From Isoptericola sp. BMS4 (GTDB lineage: Bacteria; Actinomycetota; Actinomycetes; Actinomycetales; Cellulomonadaceae), in the NCBI RefSeq assembly GCF_011634835.1, contig NZ_SIRP01000001.1:1449603-1513602 (forward strand): a stretch of 64,000 nt of DNA, read 5' to 3'. The notes under the pieces are model-generated. The model saw nothing but the letters and a program-made list of their open reading frames with translations, ran no database searches and had not been told where the DNA came from. The position numbers and the translations under genes are program-made. Each line of letters begins with the position of its first letter. Positions within the stretch are counted from its first letter, which is position 1. Positions 20,008-55,830 of this stretch are shown piece by piece.

Positions 20008-20185
20008 CCGGGCCGATCCGTCGTCGGCGCTGGCGTCGGGCCCGGCAGCGGGGCCCCACGCCTCGCTGCGGCGGCCGTGCTGTCCGATAACAGTCCGGCA
20101 CGGGCGGGAGCGCGCACGCCTGCGGGTGCCGCCGGCGTCGCCGGCCTCCGTTCGATCCTCCCCGGCGCGGTGCGCCCGGTCGAAC

Positions 20186-20217
20186 CCGTTGCTGCAAACT
20201 TGCAGCAACGGTACAGT
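20186..20217 (+). promoter_or_regulatory. LacI-family (MalR-like) operator and promoter of the amylopullulanase gene
   Basis: CCGTTGCTGCAA-AC-TTGCAGCAACGG (20186-20211) is a perfect 12-bp inverted repeat of the kind bound by LacI-family maltose regulators. It overlaps a consensus-spaced promoter: TTGCTG (20189-20194), 17 nt, TACAGT (20212-20217). Binding would therefore occlude RNA polymerase. No LacI gene adjoins; the regulator at 55969 is the closest candidate in the sugar loci but has a different-looking own site. Confidence 0.85.
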
Positions 20218-20263
20218 CGCGGCTGGTCGCGACCGGCGCGACCGGACGACGAAGGAGTCCTCC

Positions 20264-23200: not shown

Positions 23201-25819
23201 GGACTCGAGGTGGTGGACGGCGAGGTCACGGGCCCGGACGGTACCCTGCCGGACGGCGCCGCCTCGTACGCGCTGGAGCCCGGCGGCGACGTGCCCGACG
23301 ACGTGGCCGAGGACTTCCCGGCGTTCGCGGACCACGCCACGCTGGTGCCGACGTCGGGCGGGGAACCGCTGGACCGCGAGACGGTCGAGGGCCTGCTCAC
23401 GGGCCAGCTCCTCGTGACGCGCACGGACGGCGACGCGCTCACCGCCGCGACGGGCGTGCAGCTCCCGGGCGTGCTCGACGACCTGTACGCCAAGGATGCC
23501 GCAGACCGTACGCTCGGCGTCACCGTGCACCCGAACCTGAAGTGGGCCTCGTTCGCGCTGTGGGCGCCGACGGCGCGCGACGTCGACCTGCTGGTCTGGC
23601 CCGAGGGCGCCGACCTGGCCGGCGACCCCGACACGTTCGCCATGGAGCGGCAGGACGACGGCGCGTGGACGCTCGACGGCAAGCGCGCCGCCAAGGACTA
23701 CCCGTGGGACGGGGCCCGGTACCGGTACGCGGTCGAGGTGTACGTGCCGAGCACCGGCCAGGTCGAGACGAACGTCGTGACCGACCCCTACGCGGTGGCG
23801 CTGACGACCGACTCGACGCACGCCGTCGTCGTCTCCCTCGTCGACAAGCGGTACCGGCCGAAGGTGTGGCGCACCACGCCGCAGCCCGTCGTCGAGCGGC
23901 CCGTGGACCAGACGATCTACGAGCTGCACGTGCGGGACTTCTCGGTCGCGGACACCACCGTCCCCGAGGACGAGCGCGGTACGTACCTGGCGTTCGCCGA
24001 GGACGGCTCGGACGGCATGACGCACCTGCGCGAGCTCGCCGACGCGGGGATGACGACGGTGCACCTGCTGCCGACGTTCGACATCGCGACGGTCCCCGAG
24101 GACCCGGCCGACCAGGAGACGCCGGGCGACCTGTCCGGGTTCGCCCCGGACTCGGACGAACAGCAGGCGGCCGTGGCCGAGGTGCAGGGTTCCGACCCGT
24201 TCAACTGGGGCTACGACCCGTACCACTTCACGGTGCCGGAGGGCTCGTACGCCGTCGACCGCGACGGCGGCGCCCGCGTGGCCGAGTTCCGCACGATGGT
24301 GGGCTCGCTGCACGACGCCGGGCTCCAGGTCGTGCTCGACCAGGTGTTCAACCACACCGCCGCCAGCGGCCAGGACGCGAAGAGCGTGCTCGACCGCGTG
24401 GTGCCCGGCTACTACCACCGGCTGAACTCCACCACGGGCGCGGTGGAGACGAGCACGTGCTGCCAGAACGTCGCGACCGAGCACGCGATGGCGGGCAAGC
24501 TCATGGTCGACTCCGTGGTGACGTGGGCGCGGGACTACAAGGTCGACGGGTTCCGGTTCGACCTCATGGGTCACCACTCCCGGGAGAACATGGAGGCGGT
24601 GCGGGCCGCGCTCGACGGGCTGACCCTGGAGGACGACGGCGTCGACGGCTCGGCCGTCTACCTGTACGGCGAGGGCTGGAACTTCGGCGAGGTCGCGAAC
24701 AACGCCCTGTTCACGCAGGCCACGCAGGGGCAGCTCGGCGGCACGGGCATCGGCACGTTCTCGGACCGGTTGCGTGACGCCGTGCACGGCGGGTCGCCCG
24801 TCGACGGCGCGTCCACGTTCACGCAGGGCTTCGGCACCGGGCTGTTCACCGACCCGAACGGCCGCGAGGCCTCGACCGGCGACCCCGGGTCGGTGAACGA
24901 CGGCGGCGACGACGAGGCGGCCGACCTGGCCCACCAGACGGACCTGGTCCGCCTGGGTCTGGCAGGCAACCTGCGGGACTTCGCGTTCACCACCGCCGAC
25001 GGCGAGGTCACGAAGGGCGAGGACCTCGACTACCGCGGCTCGCCCGCGGGGTACGCGGACTCCCCGGAGGAGGTCGTCACGTACGTCGACGCGCACGACA
25101 ACGAGACCCTGTTCGACCTGCTGACGCTCAAGCTGCCGCAGGCCACGTCGATGGACGACAGGGTGCGGATGAACACGGTCTCGCTGGCGACGACGGCGCT
25201 CGCTCAGACGCCCTCGTTCTGGCACGCGGGCACCGACCTGCTGCGGTCGAAGTCGCTGGACCGCAACTCCTACGACTCGGGGGACTGGTTCAACGCGATC
25301 GACTGGTCGGGCCAGGACAACGGGTTCGGTCGCGGGCTGCCGATGGCCGCGGACAACGAGGACACGTGGCCGGTGATGGCGCCGCTGCTCGCGGACGCGG
25401 CGCTCACGCCCGCGCCGGGTGACATCGCGACGGCGTCCGAGCAGGCGCGCGACCTGCTCCTGCTGCGCGGGTCGACGGACCTGTTCCGCCTCGGGTCCGC
25501 GGACCTCGTCGCCGACAAGGTGTCGTTCCCGGTCTCCGGCCCGGACGCGACGCCGGGTGTGATCGCGATGTCGATCGACGACACGGCGGGGGACACCGAC
25601 GTCGACCCGGACCTCGACGGCGTGCTCGCGGTCTTCAACGCCTCGCCCGAGGCGCAGACCGTGGACCTGCCGACGCTCGCCGGCCGCGAGTACGCGCTCT
25701 CGCCGGTCCAGGAGTCGGGACCCGACGACGTCGTCCGCGAGACCACGTGGGACACCGACGGCGGCGCCGTCACCGTCCCCGCGCGGACCGTCGCGGTGCT
25801 CGTCGACACGGCCGGCTGA
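20264..25819 (+). CDS. pulA: Secreted bifunctional alpha-amylase / pullulanase
   Basis: This 1851-residue exoenzyme attacks starch, with two GH13 modules for alpha-1,4 and alpha-1,6 bonds. Order: signal peptide (about 1-54); X25-type starch-binding module (56-150); GH13 amylase (180-720) with nucleophile D432, acid/base E466 and D536; an Fn3-like spacer; a second X25 module (843-940); a pullulanase-associated domain (from 947); a CBM48-like domain (from 1083); and GH13_14 pullulanase (1215-1750) with D1433, E1470 and D1612. ATG 20264 follows AAGGAG. There is no cell-wall anchor. It stands alone under its own operator. The two X25 modules share CxxDWxPxCEA. Confidence 0.95.
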   Translation: MPHLDGHPDRRRSGSRARTRRAAASLTAVALALPAVAAGLGGVSLRTAPAAAAADRTATLVGDLQTELGCAEDWDPTCEATTLAPAGDGTFTSELDLPAGSYEYKVALDGAWDEAYGRDGTNENAPLVLGGDARVRVTYDDATHRIALTPLGLAGEYDDAADAGLVVPPVRQAGSDERFYFVMTDRFANGDTSNDTAGLGDDPLVSGFDPTDKGFYQGGDIAGLRDKLDYVEGLGTTAIWLTPSFMNRPVQGSGDDVSAGYHGYWITDFTRIDPHLGTNDELRALIDDAHARGIKVYFDIITNHTADVIDYAEGTYDYVEQADAPYTDAAGNAFDPADHAGTGDFPELDAETSFPYTPVIDPADADVKVPAWLNDPTLYHNRGNSTWTGESVTYGDFSGLDDLMTEHPTVVGGFVDVYTDWIDLGIDGFRIDTVKHVDREFWETWSAEVMDYAHTAGKDDFFMFGEVYDADAAKTSPYVRDTDMSSVLDFAFQAGATSYAGGNSAQGLARLFASDDRYTTPDTSASALPTFLGNHDMGRVGYMLASTDDPLARDELAHELMYLTRGQPVVYYGDEQGFAGTGGDKDARQTLFATQVDEYANQPLVTGETAGSQDRYATDAPLYTHIADLAALREANPALATGAQIERYADDGAGIYAFSRVDRDEKVEHLVALNNASQARGATFTTLTPGASYEVLYGGGEPVTADAEGTVTLSVPATSAVVLRADRTVGADTDGSIAVDAPASGAAVTGTAPVAASVDDAWAETSFAWREVGTADWHALGTAEDTTPRVFHDVAGLPEGTLVEYRAVTVDADGDRAAASTFASVGVDVSGVPGDEEPQADIDMVTVPGNHNSEMGCTGDWTPDCEAARLTLGDDGLWSGTFDLPAGDYEYKVAVGGSWDVNYGVDGEPGGANLQYTHGGGPVTFTWDPDTHVVTSSAGGGGLPGTGDQAVHWVREGLLLAPGDLGAGDSWTLWTAPVGGLEVVDGEVTGPDGTLPDGAASYALEPGGDVPDDVAEDFPAFADHATLVPTSGGEPLDRETVEGLLTGQLLVTRTDGDALTAATGVQLPGVLDDLYAKDAADRTLGVTVHPNLKWASFALWAPTARDVDLLVWPEGADLAGDPDTFAMERQDDGAWTLDGKRAAKDYPWDGARYRYAVEVYVPSTGQVETNVVTDPYAVALTTDSTHAVVVSLVDKRYRPKVWRTTPQPVVERPVDQTIYELHVRDFSVADTTVPEDERGTYLAFAEDGSDGMTHLRELADAGMTTVHLLPTFDIATVPEDPADQETPGDLSGFAPDSDEQQAAVAEVQGSDPFNWGYDPYHFTVPEGSYAVDRDGGARVAEFRTMVGSLHDAGLQVVLDQVFNHTAASGQDAKSVLDRVVPGYYHRLNSTTGAVETSTCCQNVATEHAMAGKLMVDSVVTWARDYKVDGFRFDLMGHHSRENMEAVRAALDGLTLEDDGVDGSAVYLYGEGWNFGEVANNALFTQATQGQLGGTGIGTFSDRLRDAVHGGSPVDGASTFTQGFGTGLFTDPNGREASTGDPGSVNDGGDDEAADLAHQTDLVRLGLAGNLRDFAFTTADGEVTKGEDLDYRGSPAGYADSPEEVVTYVDAHDNETLFDLLTLKLPQATSMDDRVRMNTVSLATTALAQTPSFWHAGTDLLRSKSLDRNSYDSGDWFNAIDWSGQDNGFGRGLPMAADNEDTWPVMAPLLADAALTPAPGDIATASEQARDLLLLRGSTDLFRLGSADLVADKVSFPVSGPDATPGVIAMSIDDTAGDTDVDPDLDGVLAVFNASPEAQTVDLPTLAGREYALSPVQESGPDDVVRETTWDTDGGAVTVPARTVAVLVDTAG

Positions 25820-39245: not shown

Positions 39246-39287
39246 CGTCAGGCTCTCGTGCCGGAATGCGCCCACGAGAGCCTGACG
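39246..39287 (+). terminator. Perfect 15-bp hairpin after araA
   Basis: CGTCAGGCTCTCGTG (39246-39260) and CACGAGAGCCTGACG (39273-39287) are perfectly complementary with a 12-nt loop. It closes the araBDA operon before the next LacI gene. Confidence 0.85.
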
Positions 39288-42148: not shown

Positions 42149-43144
42149 ATGAGCAGGAACTTCCGACGCGCCTCAGCGGCGGTCCTCGCAGCCCTGACGG
42201 CGGCCTCGCTGGTCGCGTGCAGCAGCGAGCAGGCGCCGCAGAGCGCCAGCGGCGACGGCGGCGCGACCACCGACACCATCACCCTCGGCTTCTCGCAGGT
42301 GGGTGCCGAGTCCGGGTGGCGGGCGGCCAACACCAAGTCCATCCAGGACACGCTCACCGCGGAGAACGGCTTCGAGCTGAAGTTCTCCGACGCGCAGCAG
42401 AAGCAGGAGAACCAGATCCAGGCGATCCGGTCCTACATCCAGCAGCAGGTCGACGTCATCGCGTTCTCGCCGGTCGTCGAGTCCGGCTGGGACGCGGTGC
42501 TCGAGGAGGCCAAGTCCGCGGGCATCCCGGTCATCCTCACCGACCGTGCCGTCGACTCCGAGGACGAGACGCTCTACGAGTCGTTCATCGGCTCCGACTT
42601 CGTCGAGGAGGGCCACCGCGCGGGCGAGTGGGCCGTCGAGCAGTACGACGGCGAGGGGATGAAGATGGTGGAGCTCCAGGGCACCACCGGCTCCGCCCCC
42701 GCGATCGACCGCAAGGAGGGCTTCGCCTCGGCGATCGAGGGGTCCGACATCGAGGTCCTCGACTCCCAGACGGGCAACTTCACCCGCACCGAGGGCAAGC
42801 AGGTGATGGAGGGCTTCCTGCAGAAGTACGACGACATCGACCTCGTCTTCGCCCACAACGACGACATGGGCCTGGGCGCCATCGAGGCCATCGAGGCCGC
42901 GGGCAAGGTGCCGGGCGAGGACATCAAGATCATCACGATCGACGCGGTCAAGGACGGCATGCAGGCCCTGGCCGACGGCAAGATCAACTACATCGTCGAG
43001 TGCAACCCGCTGCTCGGCCCGGACCTCGCCGACGTGGCGACCAAGGTCGTCGCGGGTGAGGACGTCGAGAAGCGGATCGTCGTCGAGGACGCCGCGTTCG
43101 ACCAGGAGGGCGCCAAGGAGGCGCTGCCCGACCGTCAGTACTGA
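42149..43144 (+). CDS. ytfQ: Furanose-binding lipoprotein of a YtfQ-type ABC importer
   Basis: This 331-residue binding lipoprotein resembles YtfQ, which binds galactofuranose and related furanoses, including arabinofuranose. The lipobox SLVAC gives Cys24. The mature protein starts ITLGFSQVGAESGWRAANTKSIQ, the YtfQ hallmark, then has IRSYIQQQVDVIAFSPVVESGWD, VILTDRAVD, and FAHNDDMGLGAIEAIEAAGKVPG. ATG 42149 has GAGGAGGAG upstream. It leads a four-gene operon behind two LacI-type operators. Next to arabinan-degrading enzymes, L-arabinofuranose or arabino-oligosaccharides are plausible ligands. Confidence 0.93.
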   Translation: MSRNFRRASAAVLAALTAASLVACSSEQAPQSASGDGGATTDTITLGFSQVGAESGWRAANTKSIQDTLTAENGFELKFSDAQQKQENQIQAIRSYIQQQVDVIAFSPVVESGWDAVLEEAKSAGIPVILTDRAVDSEDETLYESFIGSDFVEEGHRAGEWAVEQYDGEGMKMVELQGTTGSAPAIDRKEGFASAIEGSDIEVLDSQTGNFTRTEGKQVMEGFLQKYDDIDLVFAHNDDMGLGAIEAIEAAGKVPGEDIKIITIDAVKDGMQALADGKINYIVECNPLLGPDLADVATKVVAGEDVEKRIVVEDAAFDQEGAKEALPDRQY

Positions 43145-43158
43145 CGGTCCCGTCCGAC

Positions 43159-43233
43159 GGCCGCCCGCCCTCGCGGCGGGCGGCCCCGAGACCCGCGGTG
43201 GGCGCGGCACGACCTCGCGCCGCGCCCACCGCG
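43159..43233 (+). terminator. Two hairpins between ytfQ and ytfR
   Basis: GGCCGCCCGCC (43159-43169) pairs with GGCGGGCGGCC (43175-43185). CGCGGTGGGCGCGGC (43194-43208) pairs with GCCGCGCCCACCGCG (43219-43233). Both stems are perfect. They lie at the same operon position as the chvE-mmsA stem and probably keep binding-protein mRNA in excess. Confidence 0.72.
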
Positions 43234-43251
43234 CCCCACGGAAGGTCAAGG

Positions 43252-44823
43252 ATGACGAGCTCGACCGCCGGCCCGGCCGGCAGCTCCCGGGGCGACGCCC
43301 CCGGCGCCGGGCGCCCCGTCGTCGAGATGACCGGGATCTCGATCGAGTTCCCGGGCGTCAAGGCGCTCGACGGGGTCGACCTCCGGCTCTTCGGAGGCGA
43401 GGTGCACGCCCTCATGGGCGAGAACGGCGCCGGGAAGTCCACCCTCATCAAGGCGCTCACGGGCGTCTACGGCATCGACGACGGCGAGATCCTCGTCGGC
43501 GGCGAGCCGCACCGGTTCTCCGGCCCGGGAGAGGCCCAGGCCGCGGGGATCGCGACCGTGTACCAGGAGGTCAACCTCTGCGAGAACCTCACGGTCGCGG
43601 AGAACATCATGCTGGGCCACGAGCCGCGCCGCCTCGGCGTGATCGACTGGCCCCGCACGCGCCGTCGCGCGGCCGAGCACCTGGCCACCATGGGCCTGGA
43701 CATCGACCCCGCGTCGTCGCTGGGCTCCCACTCGATCGCCGTGCAGCAACTGGTCGCCATCAGCCGCGCCATGGTGGTCGACGCCAAGGTGCTGATCCTC
43801 GACGAGCCCACCTCCAGCCTGGACGCGGACGAGGTCGCCCGGCTCTTCACCGTCGTGCGCCGCCTGCGCGACCAGGGGGTCGCGATCCTGTTCGTCTCGC
43901 ACTTCCTCGAGCAGGTCTACGAGATCTCCGACCGGATGACGGTGCTGCGCAACGGGGCCCGGGTGGGGGAGTACCCCACCGCCGAGCTCAGCCGCACCGA
44001 GCTGGTGTCGCGGATGATCGGCCGCTCGATGGAGGTGCTCGACGACCTGCAGGTGCGCACCGAGCACAGCGTCGACCCCACCGAGGGCACGCCGTTCGTG
44101 CGGGCGGTCGGGCTGGGGCGGCGCGGCTCGGTCCAGCCGTTCGACCTCGACGTCCACCCGGGCGAGGTGGTCGGCCTCGCCGGCCTGCTCGGCTCCGGGC
44201 GCACGGAGATGGCGCGCCTGCTCGCGGGCGCCGACCGGGCGGACTCGGGCACGCTGCACGTCAAGGGCGCACTGACCCGGCTGCGCTCCCCGCGGGCCGC
44301 GATCGCGCGCAAGGTCGCCTTCTCCTCCGAGGACCGCAAGGCGGAGGGCGTCGTCGGCGACCTCACGGTGCGCGAGAACATCGTGCTCGGTCTGCAGGCG
44401 GACCGCGGCTGGCTGCGCCGGCTGCCGGCCCGGCAGGTCGACGAGATCGTCGAGCGGTACGTCGCGGCGCTGAACATCCGGCCCGCGGACCCGGACGCCC
44501 TGCTGCGCAACCTCTCGGGCGGCAACCAGCAGAAGGTGCTGCTCGCGCGCTGGCTCGCCACGGCGCCGGAGCTGTTCATCCTCGACGAGCCGACCCGCGG
44601 CATCGACGTCGGTGCCAAGGCCGAGATCCAGCGGCTCGTCGCCGACCTGGCGGCGCGCGGGATGGCGGTGCTCTTCATCTCGGCCGAGCTCGAGGAGGTG
44701 GTGCGGCTCAGCCACCGCATCGCCGTGATGCGCGACCGGCACAAGGTCGCGGAGCTGACCAACACCGAGTCCGTCGGCGTCGACGACGTCGTCGAGCTCA
44801 TCGCGAGCGGAGGGGAACGCTGA
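43252..44823 (+). CDS. ytfR: ATPase subunit of YtfQRT-YjfF furanose importer
   Basis: This 523-residue duplicated CUT2 ATPase has NBD1 [34 protein letters not shown], a relaxed signature GSHSIAVQQLVAISRAM, and VLILDEPTSSLD. NBD2 has [29 protein letters not shown] and [16 protein letters not shown]. It powers the two permeases that follow. ATG 43252 follows GGAAGG; an upstream in-frame start is less likely because it lies inside a hairpin. The stop overlaps the ytfT start (TGATG). A close paralogue lies at 40382. Confidence 0.94.
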   Translation: MTSSTAGPAGSSRGDAPGAGRPVVEMTGISIEFPGVKALDGVDLRLFGGEVHALMGENGAGKSTLIKALTGVYGIDDGEILVGGEPHRFSGPGEAQAAGIATVYQEVNLCENLTVAENIMLGHEPRRLGVIDWPRTRRRAAEHLATMGLDIDPASSLGSHSIAVQQLVAISRAMVVDAKVLILDEPTSSLDADEVARLFTVVRRLRDQGVAILFVSHFLEQVYEISDRMTVLRNGARVGEYPTAELSRTELVSRMIGRSMEVLDDLQVRTEHSVDPTEGTPFVRAVGLGRRGSVQPFDLDVHPGEVVGLAGLLGSGRTEMARLLAGADRADSGTLHVKGALTRLRSPRAAIARKVAFSSEDRKAEGVVGDLTVRENIVLGLQADRGWLRRLPARQVDEIVERYVAALNIRPADPDALLRNLSGGNQQKVLLARWLATAPELFILDEPTRGIDVGAKAEIQRLVADLAARGMAVLFISAELEEVVRLSHRIAVMRDRHKVAELTNTESVGVDDVVELIASGGER

Positions 44824-45962
44824 TGTCCACACCTTCGCCGGCACCTTCGCCGGCACCGTCGGCGCGTACCGGTGCCGCGGGACGGTGGGGAGCCGTCCTG
44901 CGCCACCACCTGTTCTGGCCGGTGCTCGCGCTCGTCGTGCTCCTCGCGGTCAACACCGCCGTCCGGCCCGACTTCCTGTCCGTGTCGATCCTCGACGGGC
45001 ACCTCTTCGGCTCGCCGATCGACATCCTGCGCAACTGCGCCCCGCTCATGCTGGTCGCGCTGGGCATGTCGCTGGTGATCGCGACACGGGGCATCGACCT
45101 GTCGGTCGGCGCCGTCGTCGCGATCGCGGGCGCGGTCGCGCTGACCTTCATCGCGGGCTCGCCAGACCCGGAGTCCCCGACGACGGTGCTGCTGGCGGTC
45201 GGCCTGGCGCTCGCGCTGAGCCTCGCGCTGGGGGTGTGGAACGGCTTCCTCGTCTCCGTGCTCGGCATCCAGCCCATCATCGCGACCCTCATCCTCATGA
45301 CCGCGGGCCGCGGCGTGGCGATGCTGGTGACGCAGGGGCAGATCACCACGGTGAACAGTGCGCCGTTCAAGACGCTGGGCGCCGGCTACTGGTTCGGCCT
45401 GCCCGCCGCGACCCTGGTCGCGTTCGGCGTGTTCGGGCTGGTGGCGCTGCTGGTGCGCCGCACCGCGCTCGGCATGCTGGTCGAGGCGGTGGGCATCAAC
45501 CCGGCCGCGAGCCGGCTCGCGGGCGTGCAGGCGCGGACCATCGTGTGGACCGTGTTCGCCCTGTCGGGCCTGTTCTCCGGCCTGGCGGGCCTCATCCTGT
45601 CGTCGAACGTCATGGCGGCCGACGCGAACAACGCCGGCCTGTTCATCGAGCTCGACGCGATCCTGGCCGTCGTGATCGGCGGCACGTCCCTCGCCGGCGG
45701 CAAGTTCTCGCTCTCGGGCACCTTCGTCGGCGTGCTGATCATCGCGACCCTGTCCCTCACGGTGACCAACGTCGGCATCTCCCCGCTGGTCACGCCGCTG
45801 TTCAAGGCACTCGTGGTGGCCGCGGTGACCCTGCTCCAGTCGCCGGTGGTGCGGCGCCGGCTCGCCGAGCGCACGCGGCGCGGCGGTCGCCCGCCCCGCA
45901 CGGCGCCGGCCCCGCGGCCGGGGAAGCCCTCCGACACGACGACGAAGGCGGTGGCCCGATGA
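44823..45962 (+). CDS. ytfT: Permease subunit YtfT of furanose ABC importer
   Basis: This 379-residue CUT2 permease has about ten helices after a Pro/Ser/Ala-rich 20-residue N-terminus containing the short repeat PSPAPSPAPS. Segments LVALGMSLVIATRGIDLSVGAVVAIAGA, GIQPIIATLILMTAGRGVAMLVTQGQITTV and ELDAILAVVIGGTSLAGGKFSLSG are characteristic of YtfT. A 40-residue basic C-terminal tail is cytoplasmic. It pairs with YjfF to form a heterodimeric pore. It is coupled at both ends: TGATG with ytfR and ATGA with yjfF. Confidence 0.94.
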   Translation: MSTPSPAPSPAPSARTGAAGRWGAVLRHHLFWPVLALVVLLAVNTAVRPDFLSVSILDGHLFGSPIDILRNCAPLMLVALGMSLVIATRGIDLSVGAVVAIAGAVALTFIAGSPDPESPTTVLLAVGLALALSLALGVWNGFLVSVLGIQPIIATLILMTAGRGVAMLVTQGQITTVNSAPFKTLGAGYWFGLPAATLVAFGVFGLVALLVRRTALGMLVEAVGINPAASRLAGVQARTIVWTVFALSGLFSGLAGLILSSNVMAADANNAGLFIELDAILAVVIGGTSLAGGKFSLSGTFVGVLIIATLSLTVTNVGISPLVTPLFKALVVAAVTLLQSPVVRRRLAERTRRGGRPPRTAPAPRPGKPSDTTTKAVAR

Positions 45963-46981
45963 CGACCCTCGCATCCTCCCGCGACGCGGCCCCCGCACCC
46001 GGCGGCGGACCTGCCCGGCGGCGGCGCCTGCACGTCGACCGGCGGTACCTGCCGGTCCTCGGCACGGTCGTGGTGCTGGCGCTCCTGCTCGTGCTCGGCG
46101 GCGCGCGCTACGACAACTTCCTGTCCGTCGGCGTGCTGGCGAACCTCTTCATCAACAACTCGTTCCTCATCGTGCTGGCCGTGGGCATGACCTTCGTCAT
46201 CCTCACGGGCGGGATCGACCTGTCGGTCGGCTCGGTCGTCGCGCTGTCCAGCGTGACGGCGGCCTACCTGCTGCAGAGCGGCATGCCGGCGGGCGTCGTG
46301 ATCCCGCTGGTGGTGCTCGTGGGGTCGGTCATCGGGCTCCTCATGGGCCTGATGGTGCAGGTCTTCGAGGTGCAGCCGTTCATCGCGACCCTCGCGGGGA
46401 TGTTCTTCGCCCGGGGGCTGTGCTTCCTCATCGCCCCGGAGTCGATCCCGATCACGGACGAGTCGTTCGTCTCCCTCGCGGGCTGGGACACCTGGGTCGG
46501 GGGCCAGTGGCGGCTCACCATGAGTGTCGTCATCGCCCTGGTCGCGGTCGTCTTCGCGTTCTACCTGCTGCACTACACGCAGTTCGGGCGCACCGTGTAC
46601 GCGATCGGCGGTGGCGAGGCGTCGGCGCGGCTCATGGGTCTGCCCGTGACCCGCACCAAGGTGCTCGTGTACGTCGTCAGCGGCACCTGCGCCGGGCTCG
46701 GCGGCCTGCTGTTCGCGATGTTCTCCCGCTCGGGCTACTCGCTCACGGGGGTGGGCATGGAGCTCGACGCGATCGCGGCCGTCGTCATCGGCGGCACGCT
46801 CCTGACCGGCGGCACCGGGTTCGTCCTCGGCTCGGTGCTCGGCGTCCTGGTGCTGGGCCTGATCCAGACCATCATCACCTTCGAGGGCACCCTGAGCTCC
46901 TGGTGGACCAAGATCGTCATCGGCGTGCTGCTGCTGATCTTCGTGGTGCTCCAGCGGGTCCTCACCGTGCGGCGCTCCTAG
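45959..46981 (+). CDS. yjfF: Permease subunit YjfF of furanose ABC importer
   Basis: This 340-residue CUT2 permease is the second half of the furanose pore. It has a basic N-terminus (about 1-30), [53 protein letters not shown] (a YjfF-specific stretch), GRTVYAIGGGEASARLMGL and ELDAIAAVVIGGTLLTGGTGFVLGS. ATG 45959 overlaps the ytfT stop by ATGA. It ends the operon, and a 13-bp hairpin follows 10 nt after the stop. Confidence 0.95.
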   Translation: MTTLASSRDAAPAPGGGPARRRRLHVDRRYLPVLGTVVVLALLLVLGGARYDNFLSVGVLANLFINNSFLIVLAVGMTFVILTGGIDLSVGSVVALSSVTAAYLLQSGMPAGVVIPLVVLVGSVIGLLMGLMVQVFEVQPFIATLAGMFFARGLCFLIAPESIPITDESFVSLAGWDTWVGGQWRLTMSVVIALVAVVFAFYLLHYTQFGRTVYAIGGGEASARLMGLPVTRTKVLVYVVSGTCAGLGGLLFAMFSRSGYSLTGVGMELDAIAAVVIGGTLLTGGTGFVLGSVLGVLVLGLIQTIITFEGTLSSWWTKIVIGVLLLIFVVLQRVLTVRRS

Positions 46982-47066: not shown

Positions 47067-47080
47067 TGTGAGCGCTCACA
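47067..47080 (+). promoter_or_regulatory. LacI-type operator of the GH51 gene
   Basis: TGTGAGCGCTCACA is a perfect 14-bp palindrome 30 nt before the GH51 start codon. It differs by one base each from the araB site (35188) and the chvE-upstream site (25912). Confidence 0.85.
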
Positions 47081-47110: not shown

Positions 47111-50100
47111 ATGTACAGAGCAGCACGACGATCGGCGCCACTGGCGCTGACGCTCGCCCTGGCGTTGCCGGCCTCGGCCGCCGCCGCCGTCCCCCCGCCC
47201 CCGACCCAGGCGCGCGCCGCGGTCCCGACCGCCGTCGACGTGGACGACGCCGACCACGCCGCCTACGTCTTCCCTTACTTCGCCGGCGAGGGGGCCGACG
47301 GCGAGAAGATCTACCTGGCCGTCAGCGAGTCCGACGACCCGACCACCTGGCACACCCTCAACGACGGCGATCCGATCCTCGAGTCCACCATGGGCACCGA
47401 GGGCCTTCGCGACCCGTTCCTGGCCCGCAACCCCGAGACCGGCACCTACTACCTGCTCGCCACGGACCTGAAGATCGCCGGGGGCGGGAACTTCGGCGAC
47501 GCTCAGGAGACCGGCAGCCGGTCGATGATGGTCTGGTCCTCGCCCGACCTGGTGAACTGGTCCGAGCAGCGCGAGATCGAGCTCGCGCCCACCAGCGCCG
47601 GCAACCTGTGGGCCCCCGAGGCGCACTGGGACGCCGAGGCCGAAGAGTTCGTCGTGTACTGGGCCTCCGCCCTCTACCCGGACGACGTCGCGCCCGAGGA
47701 CCGTGACATCAGCACGTCCTACCAGCGGATGATGGTCGCGACCACGCCCGACTTCACGCAGGGCAGCTTCTCCGAGCCCGAGGTGTGGATCGACATGCCC
47801 CGCGGCGACGGTCGCGGCATGATCGACTCCACGATCGCCGAGATCCCGGGGGAGAGCGGCAGCACCTACTACCGCTTCACCAAGGACGAGGCGGACATGA
47901 CGGTGCGCGAGGAGTCGTCCACCGACCTGCGCCTGACCCAGGGGGTCGCCGACGGTGACGGCTGGGACCTGGTCGCCGAGCACGTCGGCGTCGGGGAGCC
48001 CAACCCGTGGGGTGGCACCTTCACCGCCGGCGAGGGGCCGACGGTGTTCCCGTCCCTGACCGACGACTCCTGGTACATGATGATCGACCAGCCGTCGTAC
48101 CACGGCGGCGAGGGCTACATGCTGTTCCGGACGCCGGACCTGGCGTCCGGCGACTGGAGCTCGCTGCCCGAGGTCGAGCTGCCGAGCAACCCGCGCCACG
48201 GCACCGTGCTGCCGATCACCGCGGCCGAGCAGACGGCGGTCATCGAGGCGTACCAGCCCGAGCTGCTCGCCGAGGGCGTGACGCTGGACCGCTCGGAGCT
48301 CGCCCTCGAACCGGGCGCCACGAGGAGGCTCGAGGCGACGGTCACCCCCATCACCGCCGAGGACCGCACGGTCACCTGGTCGTCCGACGACGAGTCGGTG
48401 GCGACGGTCGACGCCGACGGTGTGGTCACCGCCGTCGCCGCGGGCACCGCCACGATCACGGCGGCCTCGGACGGCGGCCACGGCTCGGCGTCCGCGACGC
48501 TCACCGTCACCGCGCCCGCGCCGGCCCCGCTGCCGGACGGCGCCTGGGTCGACGACTTCGACGGCGCCGAGCTCGGCGCCCGGTGGACGATCGACCGCGA
48601 GGAGGCCTCCGCCTGGTCCCTGGGCGACGGGTCGCTGACCCTGCAGTCGCAGCCGGGGGACACCTACCAGGGCGACAACAACCACGAGAACGTGTTCCTC
48701 GTCGACGTGCCCGCGGGCGACTTCGTCGCGCAGACCTCCCTGGACGCCACCCCGACCGCGGACTTCCAGGGCGCGGGCATCATCGCCTGGAAGGGGACCG
48801 ACGACTACGTACGTACGGGCCTGACTCACGCGTCCGTCTTCGCCGACGGCCCCGTGGGCATCGAGACCGGCACCGAGACCGGGGCCGTGTACTCCTCGAC
48901 CTTCGCCGCCCGTGAGGGCTCCACCGGCGAGACGCTCCGGCTGGAGCGGACCGGGGACGACCTCACCGTCTCCGTGTGGGACGACGTGGACTGGACCCAG
49001 GTCGCCACGACCACGCTGGACGCCGACACCACGCAGATCGGGCTCTACGCCCTCGCCGCCGGGTCGGCCCCCAGCCACGAGGTGTCGTTCGACTACTTCG
49101 CGCTCGTCGAGCCGCAGGGCGCCGACGTCGTCCCGGAGGGCGAGTTCACCCTCGCCGGTGCCGAGGGCGGCTACGTCGTCGACGACGGCGGGCTCGCCCT
49201 CACCGACCAGCGGCCGCTGGACACGACGAGCTTCGTCGCGACCCCGGTCGACGGGTCGGGGGATGCCTCGCCCGTCACGCTCGCGACCGCCGGCGGCGAC
49301 CCGCTCGTGGTGAGCGGCGACCGGCTGACCGTCGGGGCGCAGGGCGACGAGGCCGCCGTCGTGCGCCTGCGCGACATCGGCGGGGGAGCCCTCGCCGTCC
49401 TCGTCGGCGACCGTGCGCTGGTCCCGGGGGCCGACGGCGCCCTCGTCCTGGGCGAGGCGGCCGACGCGGCCCGTCTCGTCGTCGTCCCAGTCTCGGTGAC
49501 CGAGCACGAGCTGACGATCGACACCGAGGCCGAGCGCACCGAGATGAGCGACGACCTCTACGGCGCGTTCTACGAGGACATCAACTACGCGGCCGACGGC
49601 GGCCTGTACGCCGAGCTGGTCCGCAACCGGTCCTTCGAGTTCTCTCATGCGGACAACGGCTCCTTCACCGGCCTGACCGCATGGAGCAAGGTCGGCGGCG
49701 GCGACATCACCGTCGAGTCCGAGCGGGACGAGTGGCTCAACGACTCCAACCGCTACTACCTGACCGTCGACTCCGACGGCAGCACGGGCGTGTCGAACTC
49801 CTCGTACAACGAGGGCGTCGCGGTCGCCGACGGCGCGTCGTACGACGCGTCGGTCTGGGCCCGCACCCCGGTGGCGCAGGACCTCACCGTGCGCGTGGTG
49901 TCCGCCGACGGCGGGACCACGTACGCGACCGGCACGGTCGCCGTCGACGGCTCGGACGAGTGGAAGCAGTACGAGACCACCCTGACCGTCACGGGCACGG
50001 CGAACGACGCCCGCTTCGAGGTCGTCTCGGGTGCCGAGGGCACGCTGCGCCTCGACATGGTGTCCCTGTTCCCGCAGGACACCTGGGTCGGTCCCGTCAA

Positions 50101-52258
50101 CGGCAGGAGCGTGCTGCGCAAGGACCTGGCCGAGATGGTCGAGGACCTGAACCCGAAGTTCCTGCGCTTCCCGGGAGGGTGCGTGACGAACGTCGGCACC
50201 TTCGACACGTACCTCGGCTCCGACGGCGAGGACCGTACGCGCACCTACCAGTGGAAGGAGACGATCGGGCCGGTCGAGGAGCGCCCGACCAACGGGAACT
50301 TCTGGGGCTACAACCAGTCCTACGGCATCGGGTACCTCGAGTACATGAAGTGGGCCGAGGACCTCGGCGCCACCCCGCTGCCCGTGGTGTCCGTGGGCGC
50401 CAACGGCTGCGGGTCGACCATCCCTGAGATGCACCCCGGCGACGCGAACTTCGACCGCTGGGTCGCCGACACGGTGGACCTCGTCGAGTTCGCCAAGGGC
50501 GACGTCGACACCGAGTGGGGCGCCGTGCGCGCCGAGCTCGGCCACCCGGAGCCGTTCGACCTGCGCTACATCGGGCTGGGGAACGAGGAGAACACCGACA
50601 CGTTCCAGGAGAACTTCCCGGCGTTCCGCGACGCGATCGAGGACGCCGCCGCCGACCACGGGTGGGACGTCACGATCATCTCCAACTCGGGTCCGGACGA
50701 CACCGGTGCCCGCTTCGACGAGCTGTGGGAGTTCAACCGCGACCAGGGCGTGGACATGGTCGACGAGCACTACTACAACGACCCGTCCTGGTTCCTGCAG
50801 AACTCCGAGCGGTACGACTCCTACGACCGCTCCGGTCCGCACGTGTTCCTCGGCGAGTACGCCTCGCGCGGCAACACCTGGGGCAACGCGCTGGCCGAGG
50901 CGGCGTACATGACCGGTCTGGAGCGCAACTCCGACGTCGTCGAGCTGGCCTCCTACGCGCCGATGTTCGCCAACGAGGACTACGTCCAGTGGTCCCCGGA
51001 CATGATGTGGTTCGACAACGACGAGTCCTGGGGCTCGGTGAACTACTGGAACCAGCGGCTGTTCATGAACAACGTCGGCGACGAGGTCGTGCCGAGCGAG
51101 CACTCCGGTCCGGCAGCGCCGGGCAACGGCCCGCTCGACGGCGGCGTCTTCCTGTCGACCTGGTCCACCCAGGCCGCCTACGACGACGTCGTGGTGACCG
51201 ACAACGACACCGGTGAGGTGCTGTTCTCCGACTCCTTCGAGGACGCCTCCAGCTGGTCGCCGGTGGCGGGCTCGTGGGCGGTCGAGGACGGCGAGTACGT
51301 CCAGTCCGGCTCGGCGAACGACGCCCGGTCGGTCCCGACGGACGGCTACGACGTCGACTGGTCGAACTACACGCTGGAGCTCGACGCCCGCAAGCTCTCC
51401 GGCGACGAGGGCTTCCTCGTCGGCTTCGCCGCCGGCGGTGCGGACGACTACTTCTGGTGGAACCTCGGCGGCTGGAACAACACCCGGTCGGTGCTCCAGC
51501 GTGCCGACGGCGGGTCCGCCGGCGAGGTCGTCGCCCTCGAGGGCGAGTCGGTCGAGACCGGCCAGGACTACCACGTCAAGGTCGTCGTCGAGGGTCGCAC
51601 CGTGGAGCTCTACCTGGACGGTGAGCTGCAGATGACCTACACCGAGCCGACCGAGAAGTCGCTCTACCAGGTCGTCACCCACGACGAGGAGACCGGCGAG
51701 CTGATCGTCAAGGTCGTCAACCCGGGAGCCTCGACCGCACGGACCGACGTGTCCGTCACCGGCGGGTTCGACGTGGCGCCCGAGGTGGCCGTCACCGAGA
51801 TGGTGGCCGACCCGTCGGCGACCAACACCAAGGCCGACAAGACGAACGTGGTCCCCGTCGACCGGACCTGGGACTCCGGAGCGGACGCGTTCACGTACGA
51901 CTTCCCGGCCCACTCGGTGACGTTCCTGAGGCTGGCGCCCGAGACCGGCGAGACCCCCAGCGCGGTGCGGGCGAGGATCCGGCCCGCGTCCGTGGTGCAG
52001 GGCACCTCGGCCCGGGTCGAGGCGACCGTCGTGGCCGCCGAGGGCGGCGGGTCGAAGGACCGCGGGACGGGCCGGGTCGAGGTCGAGGTGGACGGCGTGA
52101 CCGCCACGGGCACCCTGGCCGACGGCGAGGCCACCGTGCGGATCCCGACCGACGGCCTGGAGCCCGGGGAGCATCGGGTGACGGTCCGCTACCCGGGTGA
52201 CGCCACGTATGCGCCGAGCGAGGTGGTCAAGGACCTGACGGTCCGCGCCCCGAGGTAG
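47111..52258 (+). CDS. Giant secreted arabinan-active enzyme: GH43-like propeller plus GH51 alpha-L-arabinofuranosidase
   Basis: This is a 1715-residue exoenzyme. Order: signal peptide (about 1-27); five-blade GH43-like propeller (45-370; GLRDPFLARN, LWAPEAHWD, MIDSTIAEI); Big_2 Ig domain (390-470); beta-xylosidase-C-like lectin domain (477-665); an unassigned beta domain (677-792); and GH51 arabinofuranosidase starting LYGAFYEDINYAADGGLYAEL. A CBM4/9-like module (845-990) is inserted in GH51. Acid/base Glu1159 lies in LGNEEN and nucleophile Glu1249 in FLGEYAS. A LamG-like domain (1340-1516) sits before the GH51 C-terminal sandwich (1517-1620), and a final Ig-like domain ends the chain. There is no wall anchor. 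ATG 47111 follows GAGGAG. Confidence 0.9.
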   Translation: MYRAARRSAPLALTLALALPASAAAAVPPPPTQARAAVPTAVDVDDADHAAYVFPYFAGEGADGEKIYLAVSESDDPTTWHTLNDGDPILESTMGTEGLRDPFLARNPETGTYYLLATDLKIAGGGNFGDAQETGSRSMMVWSSPDLVNWSEQREIELAPTSAGNLWAPEAHWDAEAEEFVVYWASALYPDDVAPEDRDISTSYQRMMVATTPDFTQGSFSEPEVWIDMPRGDGRGMIDSTIAEIPGESGSTYYRFTKDEADMTVREESSTDLRLTQGVADGDGWDLVAEHVGVGEPNPWGGTFTAGEGPTVFPSLTDDSWYMMIDQPSYHGGEGYMLFRTPDLASGDWSSLPEVELPSNPRHGTVLPITAAEQTAVIEAYQPELLAEGVTLDRSELALEPGATRRLEATVTPITAEDRTVTWSSDDESVATVDADGVVTAVAAGTATITAASDGGHGSASATLTVTAPAPAPLPDGAWVDDFDGAELGARWTIDREEASAWSLGDGSLTLQSQPGDTYQGDNNHENVFLVDVPAGDFVAQTSLDATPTADFQGAGIIAWKGTDDYVRTGLTHASVFADGPVGIETGTETGAVYSSTFAAREGSTGETLRLERTGDDLTVSVWDDVDWTQVATTTLDADTTQIGLYALAAGSAPSHEVSFDYFALVEPQGADVVPEGEFTLAGAEGGYVVDDGGLALTDQRPLDTTSFVATPVDGSGDASPVTLATAGGDPLVVSGDRLTVGAQGDEAAVVRLRDIGGGALAVLVGDRALVPGADGALVLGEAADAARLVVVPVSVTEHELTIDTEAERTEMSDDLYGAFYEDINYAADGGLYAELVRNRSFEFSHADNGSFTGLTAWSKVGGGDITVESERDEWLNDSNRYYLTVDSDGSTGVSNSSYNEGVAVADGASYDASVWARTPVAQDLTVRVVSADGGTTYATGTVAVDGSDEWKQYETTLTVTGTANDARFEVVSGAEGTLRLDMVSLFPQDTWVGPVNGRSVLRKDLAEMVEDLNPKFLRFPGGCVTNVGTFDTYLGSDGEDRTRTYQWKETIGPVEERPTNGNFWGYNQSYGIGYLEYMKWAEDLGATPLPVVSVGANGCGSTIPEMHPGDANFDRWVADTVDLVEFAKGDVDTEWGAVRAELGHPEPFDLRYIGLGNEENTDTFQENFPAFRDAIEDAAADHGWDVTIISNSGPDDTGARFDELWEFNRDQGVDMVDEHYYNDPSWFLQNSERYDSYDRSGPHVFLGEYASRGNTWGNALAEAAYMTGLERNSDVVELASYAPMFANEDYVQWSPDMMWFDNDESWGSVNYWNQRLFMNNVGDEVVPSEHSGPAAPGNGPLDGGVFLSTWSTQAAYDDVVVTDNDTGEVLFSDSFEDASSWSPVAGSWAVEDGEYVQSGSANDARSVPTDGYDVDWSNYTLELDARKLSGDEGFLVGFAAGGADDYFWWNLGGWNNTRSVLQRADGGSAGEVVALEGESVETGQDYHVKVVVEGRTVELYLDGELQMTYTEPTEKSLYQVVTHDEETGELIVKVVNPGASTARTDVSVTGGFDVAPEVAVTEMVADPSATNTKADKTNVVPVDRTWDSGADAFTYDFPAHSVTFLRLAPETGETPSAVRARIRPASVVQGTSARVEATVVAAEGGGSKDRGTGRVEVEVDGVTATGTLADGEATVRIPTDGLEPGEHRVTVRYPGDATYAPSEVVKDLTVRAPR

Positions 52259-52345: not shown

Positions 52346-52363
52346 GATGTTGACGTGAACATC
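52346..52363 (+). promoter_or_regulatory. LacI-type operator candidate of the second arabinan enzyme gene
   Basis: GATGTT-GACGTG-AACATC is a 6-bp inverted repeat around a near-palindromic centre, 36 nt before the ATG. The sequence differs from the TGTGAGCGCTCACA group, so a different regulator may act here. A TTGACG at 52350-52355 could be a -35. Confidence 0.5.
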
Positions 52364-52398: not shown

Positions 52399-55300
52399 AT
52401 GAACGGCACGACATCACGATCGCACCGACGGGCCGGGCCCGTGCGGCGGCGCTGGCAGGGCGCCGCCGTGGCCCTCGCGGTCGGGCTCCCGGCCGCGCTG
52501 GCGAGCATGCCCGCGTCCGCCGCACCGGCCCCGTCGTCGGGCACGACGTCCGACGCCACCACCACCGACGCGCAGGACGAGTACGCCGGCTACCTGTTCT
52601 CGTACTTCACCGGCGAGGGCACTGCCGACGGGGAGCAGGTCTACTTCGGTCTGAGCGAGGGCAACGACCCCCTGCACTACCGGCCGATCAACGACGGCGA
52701 GCCGGTGCTCACCTCCGACGTGGGCGACGACGGCGTCCGCGACCCGTTCATCATCCGCGACCCGCGCGACGGCTCGTTCTACCAGATCGCCACCGACCTG
52801 AAGGTCTACGGCAACGGGAACTGGGACGAGTTCCAGCGCCACGGCTCCCTGTCGATCGTCGTGTGGGAGTCGGACGACCTGGTGAGCTGGAGCGAGCCGC
52901 GCCTCGTGCAGGTCTCGCCCGAGAACGCCGGCAACACGTGGGCACCCGAGGCGTACTGGGATGACGAGCGCGGCGAGTTCGTCGTGTTCTGGGCCTCCAA
53001 GCTGTACGACGCCGACGACCCGGAGCACACCGGGAACCAGCACAACCGCATGATGTACGCGACCACGACGGACTTCCGGACCTTCTCGGAGGCGAAGGTC
53101 TGGATCGACCCGGGCTACTCCGTCATCGACTCCACCGTCATCAAGCACGACGACACGTACTACCGGTTCACCAAGGACGAGCGGAACAACACCTCGTCCA
53201 CGCCGTGCTCGAAGTTCATCACCGCCGAGAGGTCGACCGACCTGCGGTCGACGGACTACGACTTCATCGCCGACTGCATCGGCAAGGCGCGCGACGGCTC
53301 GCCGGGGATCAACCAGGGCGAGGGGCCGCTCGTCTTCAAGTCCAACACCGAGGAGAAGTGGTACCAGTTCATCGACGAGTTCGGCGGTCGCGGCTACGTG
53401 CCGTTCGAGACCACCGACCTGGACTCGGGCGAGTGGACGATGGCCACGGACTACCAGATGCCGGGCCGCCCGCGGCACGGCACCGTGCTGCCGGTGACAC
53501 AGGCCGAGTACGACCGGCTGCTGCGCCACTACCAGCCGGACGCCCTCGTCGAGTCCGTCGACCCCGTCGAGGCGACCACCCAGGTGCGGCGCGCCCCCGT
53601 GCTGCCCGGCGAGGTGGGCGTCACCTACGCGGACGGCTCGACCGGGACCACGGCCGTCACCTGGGACACCGTCGCCGAGGGCGACTACGCGCGGCCGGGG
53701 ACGTTCGAGGTCACCGGCACGCTGGCGGGCGGCGCGTCCGCCCGGGCCACCGCGACGGTGACCGTCCAGGCGCAGCGCATCCACGTGGAGTCGGTCTCCG
53801 TCGATCCTTCGCAGGTCGAGCTGTGGCAGGGCACCGAGGCCACCCTGGAGGCCACTGTCACGCCGGAGAACGCCTCGGACCGGCGGGTCCGGTGGGCTTC
53901 GCGCGACACCGACGTCGCGACCGTGGACGCCGACGGCACGGTGCACGCCGTCGCGCCCGGCACGGCCACGGTCGTGGCCGCGACGCACGGCCCGCACCGT
54001 GCCGAGGTCGCGGTGACGGTCACCGCCGAGCCGCCGGGCCTCGTGGCCCGCTACCCGCTGGACGAGACGTCCGGGACCGCGGCGGCCAACGCCGTCGCGG
54101 ACAGCCCGTTCGCCGCGGCGAGCCTGGAGAACGGGGCCGCGTTCACGGGCGACGGCGTCGCCCTCGACGGCGCGGACGACTACGTCGACCTGCCCGACCA
54201 CCTGCTGCGCGGGCTGACCGACGTCACCGTGGCGCTCGACGTGCGGATCGCGCCCGACCAGGGCACGCCGTACTTCGTCTACGGTCTCGGCAACTCCAGC
54301 GGGTCCAGCGGGGACGGGTACCTGTTCACCACCGGCAACGCCTACCGCACCTCGATCACCACGGGGAACTGGTCCGGCGAGCAGACCGTGACCGCCGGCC
54401 GCGACCTCGACCGCGGGGTGTGGACCCACCTGGCGTACACGCTGTCCGGCGACACCGCCGTGCTGTACGAGAACGGCGTCGAGGTGGCCCGGCAGACGGG
54501 CGTCACCGTCGACCCGGGCGACATCGGCGGCGGCGACACCGTGGCGAACTACCTCGGGCGGTCGCTGTACTCCGGCGACAAGCACCTCAAGGGCGACGTG
54601 CGGGACTTCCGCCTCTACGACCGGGCGCTGTCGGCCGCGGAGGTCGCCTCGTTCGGCGTGGACCACACCGCCGTGCGCGGCGCGGAGGCCGACGGCCTGG
54701 CCACCGGCGCGATCGTCGACGGCGAGACCTCCACGGTGACGCTCCCGGTCGAGCCGGCCACGGACGTCACGGCGCTCGCGCCGCGGCTCGACGTCTCCGC
54801 CGCGGCGACCGTGAGCCCGGCCAACGGCTCGACGCAGGACCTCACCGAGCCCGTGACGTACACGGTCACCGGCCCGGACGGGGAATCGCGGGACTGGACG
54901 GTGCGGGCCGTGGAGCTGCGCACCCCCGTGCTGCCCGGGTACAACGCCGACCCGAACATCGCCCAGTTCGGCGGCACGTTCTACCTGTACGCGACGAGCG
55001 ACGGGTTCGACGGCTGGGGCGGGCGCACGTTCTACGTCTGGACGTCAAAGAACCTGGTCGACTGGGAGCGCTCGGCCGAGCCGATCCTCACGCTCGACGG
55101 CGAGGACGGCGACGTGCCGTGGGCGACCGGCAACGCGTGGGCCCCGACGATCATCGAGCGGGACCAGAAGTACTACTTCTACTTCTCCGGCCACAACCCG
55201 GCCTACGGCCGCAAGACGATCGGCGTCGCGGTCGCGGACAGCCCCACCGGGCCGTTCGTCGCGGAGCCGGAGGCGATGATCACGAACGGCGAGGACGTGC

Positions 55301-55830
55301 ACTCGGGGCAGGCGATCGACCCGGCCGCGTTCGAGGACCCGGCCACGGGCACGTTCTACCTGTTCTGGGGCAACGGCGGCCCGTCGAACGGTCCCGTGAT
55401 GGCCGAGCTGAGCGACGACATGACGTCCGTCGTGCCGGGCAGCATCCGCCGGATCGAGGGGCTGCCCGACTTCCGTGAGGGTCTGTTCGTGAACTACCGC
55501 GACGGGAGGTACCACCTCACGTACTCCATCGACGACACCGGCTCGGAGAACTACCGCGTCGGGTACGCGACGTCCGACAGTGTCGACGGGCCGTGGACCT
55601 ACCAGGGTCTGCTGCTGGCCAAGGACGCGAGCCAGGGGATCCTCGGGACCGGGCACTCCTCGATCCTCAACGTGCAGGGCACCGACGACTGGTACATCGC
55701 GTACCACCGGTTCGCGATCCCCGACGGGAACGGCACCCACCGGGAGACGACGATCGACCGGCTCCACGTCGGCGACGACGGGCTGTTCCAGCCCGTGACG
55801 CCCACGCTCGGCGGGCCCGACCCCCGCTGA
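52399..55830 (+). CDS. Secreted multidomain enzyme with two GH43-type propellers
   Basis: This is a 1143-residue exoenzyme for arabinan or arabinoxylan side chains. Order: long Arg-rich signal peptide (about 1-42); GH43-like propeller (60-390; GVRDPFIIRD, TWAPEAYWD, VIDSTVIK), paralogous to the one in the preceding protein; Big_4-like Ig (400-455); Big_2 Ig (461-545); LamG (548-757); a short DUF5018-like stretch (781-835); and a C-terminal classical GH43 (843-1143). The C-terminal GH43 has base Asp851 in YNADPNI, Asp974 in QAIDPAAFED and acid Glu1027 in FREGLF. ATG 52399 follows GAGGAGG. Exact linkage specificity is not readable from sequence. Confidence 0.88.
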   Translation: MNGTTSRSHRRAGPVRRRWQGAAVALAVGLPAALASMPASAAPAPSSGTTSDATTTDAQDEYAGYLFSYFTGEGTADGEQVYFGLSEGNDPLHYRPINDGEPVLTSDVGDDGVRDPFIIRDPRDGSFYQIATDLKVYGNGNWDEFQRHGSLSIVVWESDDLVSWSEPRLVQVSPENAGNTWAPEAYWDDERGEFVVFWASKLYDADDPEHTGNQHNRMMYATTTDFRTFSEAKVWIDPGYSVIDSTVIKHDDTYYRFTKDERNNTSSTPCSKFITAERSTDLRSTDYDFIADCIGKARDGSPGINQGEGPLVFKSNTEEKWYQFIDEFGGRGYVPFETTDLDSGEWTMATDYQMPGRPRHGTVLPVTQAEYDRLLRHYQPDALVESVDPVEATTQVRRAPVLPGEVGVTYADGSTGTTAVTWDTVAEGDYARPGTFEVTGTLAGGASARATATVTVQAQRIHVESVSVDPSQVELWQGTEATLEATVTPENASDRRVRWASRDTDVATVDADGTVHAVAPGTATVVAATHGPHRAEVAVTVTAEPPGLVARYPLDETSGTAAANAVADSPFAAASLENGAAFTGDGVALDGADDYVDLPDHLLRGLTDVTVALDVRIAPDQGTPYFVYGLGNSSGSSGDGYLFTTGNAYRTSITTGNWSGEQTVTAGRDLDRGVWTHLAYTLSGDTAVLYENGVEVARQTGVTVDPGDIGGGDTVANYLGRSLYSGDKHLKGDVRDFRLYDRALSAAEVASFGVDHTAVRGAEADGLATGAIVDGETSTVTLPVEPATDVTALAPRLDVSAAATVSPANGSTQDLTEPVTYTVTGPDGESRDWTVRAVELRTPVLPGYNADPNIAQFGGTFYLYATSDGFDGWGGRTFYVWTSKNLVDWERSAEPILTLDGEDGDVPWATGNAWAPTIIERDQKYYFYFSGHNPAYGRKTIGVAVADSPTGPFVAEPEAMITNGEDVHSGQAIDPAAFEDPATGTFYLFWGNGGPSNGPVMAELSDDMTSVVPGSIRRIEGLPDFREGLFVNYRDGRYHLTYSIDDTGSENYRVGYATSDSVDGPWTYQGLLLAKDASQGILGTGHSSILNVQGTDDWYIAYHRFAIPDGNGTHRETTIDRLHVGDDGLFQPVTPTLGGPDPR

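Follow-up and report, generated by a model that had tools for sequence, protein, structure and literature searches.

The GH51 enzyme MgGH51 from Meripilus giganteus (6zps) has a 169-residue sandwich after a 36-residue strand, a cellohexaose soak gave no binding, and complexes have identified Glu429 as its nucleophile and Glu351 as its acid/base (PMC7604909). A survey of 13584 bacterial GH51 sequences counted 3362 with a CBM4-like domain (PMC9964162, in excerpt). GH51 subfamily 2 is described as often carrying an additional domain of 2.60.120.260 type at the N-terminus; the accessible part of the same paper also refers to a small group of GH51 enzymes that have CBM66, at a position not given there (PMC10461819). 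Termite gut clone G12 is a natural CBM4/GH51/GH43 hybrid that, when assayed, was active on pNP-Araf and inactive on pNP-Xylp; in the accessible text, its authors were unable to tell whether the GH43 unit acted at all (PMC3662619). For BlArafE (BLLJ_1850) of Bifidobacterium longum, sequential trimming of double-substituted arabinose is described (PMC8939339, in part), and the description of the GH43_22 enzyme BAD_1527/BaAbf43C supplies the roles of the acidic triad used below (PMC11264647, in excerpt). A CBM4-like insert in GH51 and a GH51/GH43/CBM4 hybrid, the latter published in 2013, are therefore already known.

In the window, meaning the whole 64,000-nucleotide stretch of Isoptericola sp. 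BMS4 DNA analysed here, an ORF at 47111-52258 (plus strand) with an ATG start encodes a protein of 1715 amino acids in one frame without internal stop. From the N-terminus, Pfam and NCBIfam matches place a GH43_22-like propeller, a Big_2 domain, a concanavalin-A-like domain, a domain we call X1, a twice-interrupted GH51 enzyme, and a Big_3_5 domain. The protein shares with MgGH51 the barrel, the sandwich, the CBM4-like domain after the N-terminal strand, and the catalytic residues, whereas the MgGH51 construct (6zps) has no second insert, propeller, or Ig domains (PMC7604909). Compared by description only, the G12 hybrid has the same fusion of GH51, CBM4, and GH43; its module order is variously written, and the accessible text describes no second insert (PMC3662619). 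Like the window protein, BlArafE combines two arabinofuranosidase units with LamG and Ig domains, but both of its units are GH43 (22 and 34) and it is membrane-anchored (PMC8939339), and it resembles the neighbouring gene at 52399-55830 more than the 1715-aa gene. BAD_1527/BaAbf43C represents the propeller's nearest named family and has the same kind of acidic triad, in an enzyme without GH51 (PMC11264647).

We consider it likely that this protein is a secreted enzyme in which a GH43_22-like and a GH51 arabinofuranosidase are tethered, with a structural CBM4-like insert, a CBM66-like insert that handles the sugar chain, and arabinose uptake encoded next door. As a two-enzyme alpha-L-arabinofuranosidase, probably exported, it would remove single L-arabinofuranose units from plant-polymer side chains with each of its heads, the propeller by inversion and the GH51 barrel with retention, both assigned from family; arabinan, arabinoxylan, and arabinogalactan are candidate substrates. 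A signal-peptide-like N-terminus, recognized by eye at residues 1-26 (47111..47188, plus strand), accords with secretion.

Whenever GC-rich DNA yields a large fused ORF, artefact has to be considered, in this case a misassembly or a wrong frame merging two genes; we found nothing in favour of it. This is almost certainly not what happened here: when 150 genomes from the family were searched, with at most three candidates scored in each, six genomes other than that of the window gave one-frame matches at 79–85% identity that begin at residue 1 or 16 and end at 1612-1618, short of the final Ig domain. Many more of these 150 genomes kept the GH51 part with both inserts behind a different front. 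We also scanned a genome collection (84,980 species) with two peptide patterns located outside the inserts and kept the best 80 of 179 relatives; among these, the order propeller, Big_2, ConA, X1, and GH51 recurs in 10 of 80 contigs. The layout is genuine, but it comes from a recognisable, fairly widespread family and is not a one-off. The original prediction had called it unusual; it proves less exceptional than that, as the CBM4-like insert is common, the second insert recurs in relatives, and a hybrid had already been published.

The GH51 enzyme is assembled from an N-terminal strand (residues 798-836, 49502..49618, plus strand), a barrel (995-1333, 50093..51109, plus strand), and a C-terminal sandwich (1519-1612, 51665..51946, plus strand), as delimited by PDB-chain alignment and, for the latter two, also by Pfam. 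ASD1_dom (PF22848) matched residues 1010-1251 at 2.3e-55 (188 bits, cut-off 22.2) and Alpha-L-AF_C (PF06964) matched 1252-1602 with 104 bits (cut-off 27). In a phmmer search against PDB, residues 14-527 of the MgGH51 chain (6zps) matched protein residues 813-1330 with 208 bits, and chain residues 534-623 weakly matched 1517-1607 (11 bits, E 0.52). By alignment to MgGH51, E1249 is the nucleophile and E1159 the acid/base, so that both catalytic glutamates that had been expected are located, and E822 (in the N-terminal strand), N1158, and Y1222 are also kept; all five residues are identical in 80/80 of the best 80 of 179 relatives. On this alignment and these profiles, the protein is predicted to be a GH51 arabinofuranosidase that releases arabinose. 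The CBM_4_9 match at 835-974, which we take to be a 2.60.120.260-type domain, would correspond to the additional N-terminal domain often present in GH51 subfamily 2.

Structural modelling was less informative for the barrel. For the GH51 part, AlphaFold run on a 12-sequence alignment gave a mean pLDDT of 58, with the barrel mostly below 50. Compared with PDB, this low-confidence model had GH51 chains as its leading matches by Z (3ug3, 14.4), but at an rmsd of about 10, and it also matched the sandwich of GH44 3ik2 over 122 residues at 2.5 (range 1-814). Given the poor barrel model, the nesting rests on the MgGH51 alignment, the gap in the Pfam profile, and relatives without the insert (L119-L121).

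The first insert is CBM4-like and spans residues 837-988 (49619..50074, plus strand), delimited by Pfam and PDB-chain alignment (PMC7604909), with the CBM_4_9 match at 2.1e-12. The second, LamG/CBM66-like, spans residues 1334-1518 (51110..51664, plus strand) by Pfam, PDB-chain alignment, and model, and contains a match to the LamG-type family 3keto-disac_hyd at 1378-1519 (6.6e-8). In the MgGH51 alignment, it appears as about 186 residues (approximately 1331-1516) between barrel and sandwich that are absent from MgGH51, where the corresponding point falls between chain residues 527 and 534. Within the single Alpha-L-AF_C match, profile positions 16-165, 150 in number, are stretched over the 351 residues 1252-1602, which indicates a large insertion. 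The alignments thus indicate a GH51 enzyme interrupted by two nested modules, as had been proposed from the sequence with borders at 845-990 and 1340-1516, within about 10 residues of those found here. The profile search recovered CBM_4_9 and LamG-type matches within GH51 and a C-terminal profile match stretched by an insertion; in the structure prediction, the second insert folded well, while the barrel, as described above, did not.

We favour the view that the CBM4-like insert would serve this GH51 branch structurally and would not be a sugar binder. The second insert reached pLDDT 71-92 per ten-residue block over model positions 551-710 (protein 1348-1507), and this model matched the CBM66 of a Bacillus levanase (4azz) with Z 13.5 and rmsd 2.2 Å over 133 aligned residues at 19% identity. 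Since levanase CBM66 chains were matched by sequence at E 0.25–0.28 only, we describe this module as CBM66-like in fold, as the model suggests, and do not file it as CBM66; sugar binding is putative. CBM66 modules bind fructan ends. In the open-access literature searched, we found no GH51 enzyme described as having its barrel and sandwich separated by a LamG or CBM66 module.

Conservation of the second insert was high. In best local alignments of the best 80 of 179 relatives, mean identity to the window protein was 78.1% for the barrel, 68.8% for the second insert, 56.4% for the CBM4-like domain, and 55.6% for the C-terminal sandwich; relative by relative, the second insert was better conserved than the sandwich in 74/80 and than the CBM4-like domain in 73/80. 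A W-W-N-x-G-G-W-x-N-x-R motif is among the 57 of 185 insert positions that are at least 95% identical in this set. This pattern is compatible with a sugar-handling role, and the CBM66-like insert, as a fixed part of the actinobacterial clade, would most likely hold or select the sugar chain. It is unlikely, in our estimate, that the module instead belongs to the GH51 active centre and is no accessory binder, shaping outer subsites and creating a new substrate choice, such as capped or doubly substituted arabinose. It is rather more doubtful that the GH51 unit of the clade differs in specificity from ordinary arabinofuranosidases with the second insert as the cause; the strong conservation of the insert and its resemblance to CBM66 in fold could be read that way, but the MgGH51 arabinose-contacting residues that we checked are kept in 80/80 of the best 80 of 179 relatives.

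Both inserts were present in 80/80 of the best 80 of 179 relatives, a figure that overstates insert frequency, as these were ranked by an insert-containing query. As a less biased count, the PF06964 profile over 396 Actinomycetota genomes gave 60 places in 39 genomes; seven of these have the second insert, namely that of the window and, by the insert profile, L122-L127, in a count made without inspection of the fragmentary rows G371, G470, and G336 and of a stop-bearing row (G395). A protein search, also of 396 Actinomycetota genomes (E 1e-20, at most two candidates scored per genome), matched nine, namely the window's own, six across both insert sites at 52–56% identity, and two ending at about query residue 541, short of the second site. 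Across 20 loci (L115-L134), the insert profile matched well in seven (L115, L122-L127) and partially in five (L116, L117, L130, L132, L133), five were unmatched despite long stretches at the site (L118, L128, L129, L131, L134), and three had no room for the insert (L119-L121). The Actinomycetota GH51 proteins L035-L115 and L122-L127 have CBM4-like and LamG/CBM66-type inserts at the same two sites as the window protein, most of them without a propeller. A distant Parabacteroides distasonis protein (L118, 29%) has a CBM4-like domain and, at the second site, a LamG-type stretch below the Pfam cut-off (20.4 vs 26.8 bits) that the insert profile did not match. Proteins from Hymenobacter, Bacteroides, and Monoglobus have the first insert only, that of Monoglobus below the Pfam cut-off. 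At two more of the 60 places, in the distant Actinomycetota GH51s L128 and L129, the second-insert site is occupied by about 230 residues unmatched by the insert profile, which may represent another kind of insert.

In front of the GH51 enzyme, a propeller, an Ig domain, and a lectin-like domain had been anticipated, and all three were found: the propeller at residues 45-385 (47243..48265, plus strand; NCBIfam, model, motif), Big_2 at 388-463 (48272..48499, plus strand; Pfam, 2.5e-18), and a GH43_C2/DUF1349 concanavalin-A-like domain at 481-664 (48551..49102, plus strand; Pfam and model fold comparison). Two further domains extend this list. A C-terminal Big_3_5 Ig-like domain occupies residues 1620-1715 (51968..52255, plus strand; Pfam match 1624-1711, 7.4e-13). 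The beta-rich domain X1 (669-795, about 127 residues; 49115..49495, plus strand) was recognized in the N-terminal model; it matched no Pfam family at E 5, and a PDB sequence search gave one match, at E 0.57. X1 is present in 58/80 of the best 80 of 179 relatives, and the strands predicted in the model could form a trefoil.

The propeller has its nearest NCBIfam match, over residues 50-381, in BAD_1527 (GH43_22), and we call it GH43_22-like only, since its 171 bits lie far below the equivalog cut-off of 500; GH43 activity is predicted, its exact specificity only tentatively so. D101, D239, and E308 are the likely base, pKa modulator, and acid, assigned by motif position and not by superposition. 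The N-terminal AlphaFold model (mean pLDDT 77.8) was better than that of the GH51 part, and its propeller matched single-domain GH43 chains with Z 19.2–20.7 and rmsd 3.2–3.6 over about 250 residues, among them 4qqs (Z 20.7, rmsd 3.3, 259 aligned). Chains of GH159 (7zei, Z 20.8) and GH62 (4o8n, Z 19.0) scored about as high, so the fold alone is no proof of GH43. We claim single-domain fold matches alone, because two-domain matches of the N-terminal model had an rmsd of 22–28.

The propeller might be a dead GH43 that only binds substrate and leaves all chemistry to GH51, a reading that can draw on the assayed GH51/GH43 hybrid, which acted on pNP-Araf only and whose authors could not separate a GH43 contribution, as far as the accessible text reports (PMC3662619). 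We regard this as improbable, as D101, D239, and E308 are conserved in 31/31 propeller-bearing relatives, over which propeller identity to the window protein averages 71% (among the best 80 of 179).

It had also been suggested that the layout positions polymer substrate between the two active sites. In its strictest form, this would be a rigid two-site machine in which nested modules and propeller hold one polymer chain between the sites. One chain does carry both catalytic sets, and in 14 of the 30 relatives with the propeller in front (among the best 80 of 179), the heads are joined by 2–20 residues, which would fix them close together there. However, the spacer measures 144 residues in one and 331–504 in the other 15 of these relatives, and 412 residues (386-797) in the window protein. 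A spacer that ranges from 2 to 504 residues does not keep a fixed geometry and speaks against a two-site clamp; the suggestion is not supported by this comparison, and we hold the rigid machine to be highly improbable. It is simpler to assume two exo-acting heads that are merely tethered, which fits the spacer lengths better: held on the same branched substrate, one head could clear substitutions left by the other.

GH43 was found in 31/80 of the best 80 of 179 relatives, 30 with it in front and one behind. To place the fusion, we used a tree of strand and barrel from 100 proteins, inferred by a quick method with SH-aLRT support only and leaving out L117 (split barrel match); its outgroup branches were long and came with warnings, and the tree is used only for the fusion's place inside the ingroup. 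All 31 N-terminal propeller fusions on it, counting the window protein, group as a single branch with SH-aLRT support of 96, and the nearest to the window protein are Isoptericola proteins. The fused label changes twice in all on this tree, the second time in Cellulomonas carbonis (L071). This protein (frame from 4761) lies in the same clade and has its GH43 at the C-terminal end; it is a separate, second fusion.

Among the genomes with an unfused GH51, 30/38 had a separate GH43_22-like match (44–61% identity) on the same contig, no further than about 22 kb away, by hand count among the matches listed, with G002 (unclear) and G113 (which may be a C-terminal fusion like L071) dropped and G085 (match on another contig) counted as a miss. 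As judged from these sequences, the separate matches nearby link the two fusion partners. Since the gene at 52399-55830 itself matches at 44%, some of them may be relatives of this neighbour and not of the propeller.

That neighbouring gene (52399..55830, plus strand; Pfam, NCBIfam) encodes a GH43_22-like unit, Big_4, Big_2, LamG, and a second GH43, a layout like that of BlArafE as given in the accessible part of PMC8939339. Upstream of the 1715-aa gene are genes for a YtfQ/YtfR/YjfF-like sugar ABC importer (42149..46981, plus strand; NCBIfam), of which the YjfF permease alone passes its cut-off (401 vs 363 bits), with YtfQ at 327 of 510 and YtfR at 663 of 850. Genes of LacI-family regulators lie upstream at 39258 and, beyond the downstream neighbour enzyme, at 55969. 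Together, this looks like an arabinose-polymer utilisation region, and the furanose-type importer would take up the freed arabinose.

A perfect palindrome, TGTGAGCGCTCACA, upstream of the 1715-aa gene at 47067..47080 (no strand assigned) is a candidate operator of LacI-family type. It had five matches at two or fewer mismatches in the window, against 0.21 expected from shuffles; only 47067-47080 is perfect, and near copies lie at 25912, 35188, 42036, and 42059. In our view, it resembles lac-type operators. A second, different perfect palindrome (52346-52363) precedes the neighbour enzyme gene; its number of matches, at the tolerance applied, was reached in 3 of 100 shuffles. The two palindromes may be operators for the LacI-family proteins encoded at 39258 and 55969. 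The intergenic segment 52271-52331 that separates the two enzyme genes contains a 29-bp inverted repeat whose arms are 97% complementary around a loop of 3 nt; as RNA, it folds at -55.6 kcal/mol with a z of -8.8. Strong folds also lie 3' of the gene in 31/31 fused relatives (-35.9 to -77.8 kcal/mol per 90 nt, without shuffle control), and we read the hairpin as a putative terminator or mRNA end. A repeat element was considered for it and rejected, as no second copy of the core occurs within one mismatch in the genome and others differ in 2–3 of 18 bases.

Elsewhere in the window, Pfam matches in the 2018-aa product of 19763-25819 predict an amylopullulanase-type enzyme: residues 348-806 match alpha-amylase, X25 is matched twice (best at 224-313), and everything from 1118 onwards is a pullulanase part. 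The 1206-aa ORF at 15712-19332 has two ABC-membrane and two ABC-ATPase stretches in a single chain (Pfam).

Our results, which establish no new principle and should be useful to specialists in carbohydrate-active enzymes, suggest that a retaining arabinofuranosidase tolerates two nested modules, one of them under tighter conservation than the C-terminal sandwich of the enzyme itself. They also define a clade in which a GH43 unit appears to have been attached and then retained at very different distances from the GH51 enzyme. Its members lend themselves to experiments on how tethering and nested lectin-type modules may contribute to the debranching of plant fibre.
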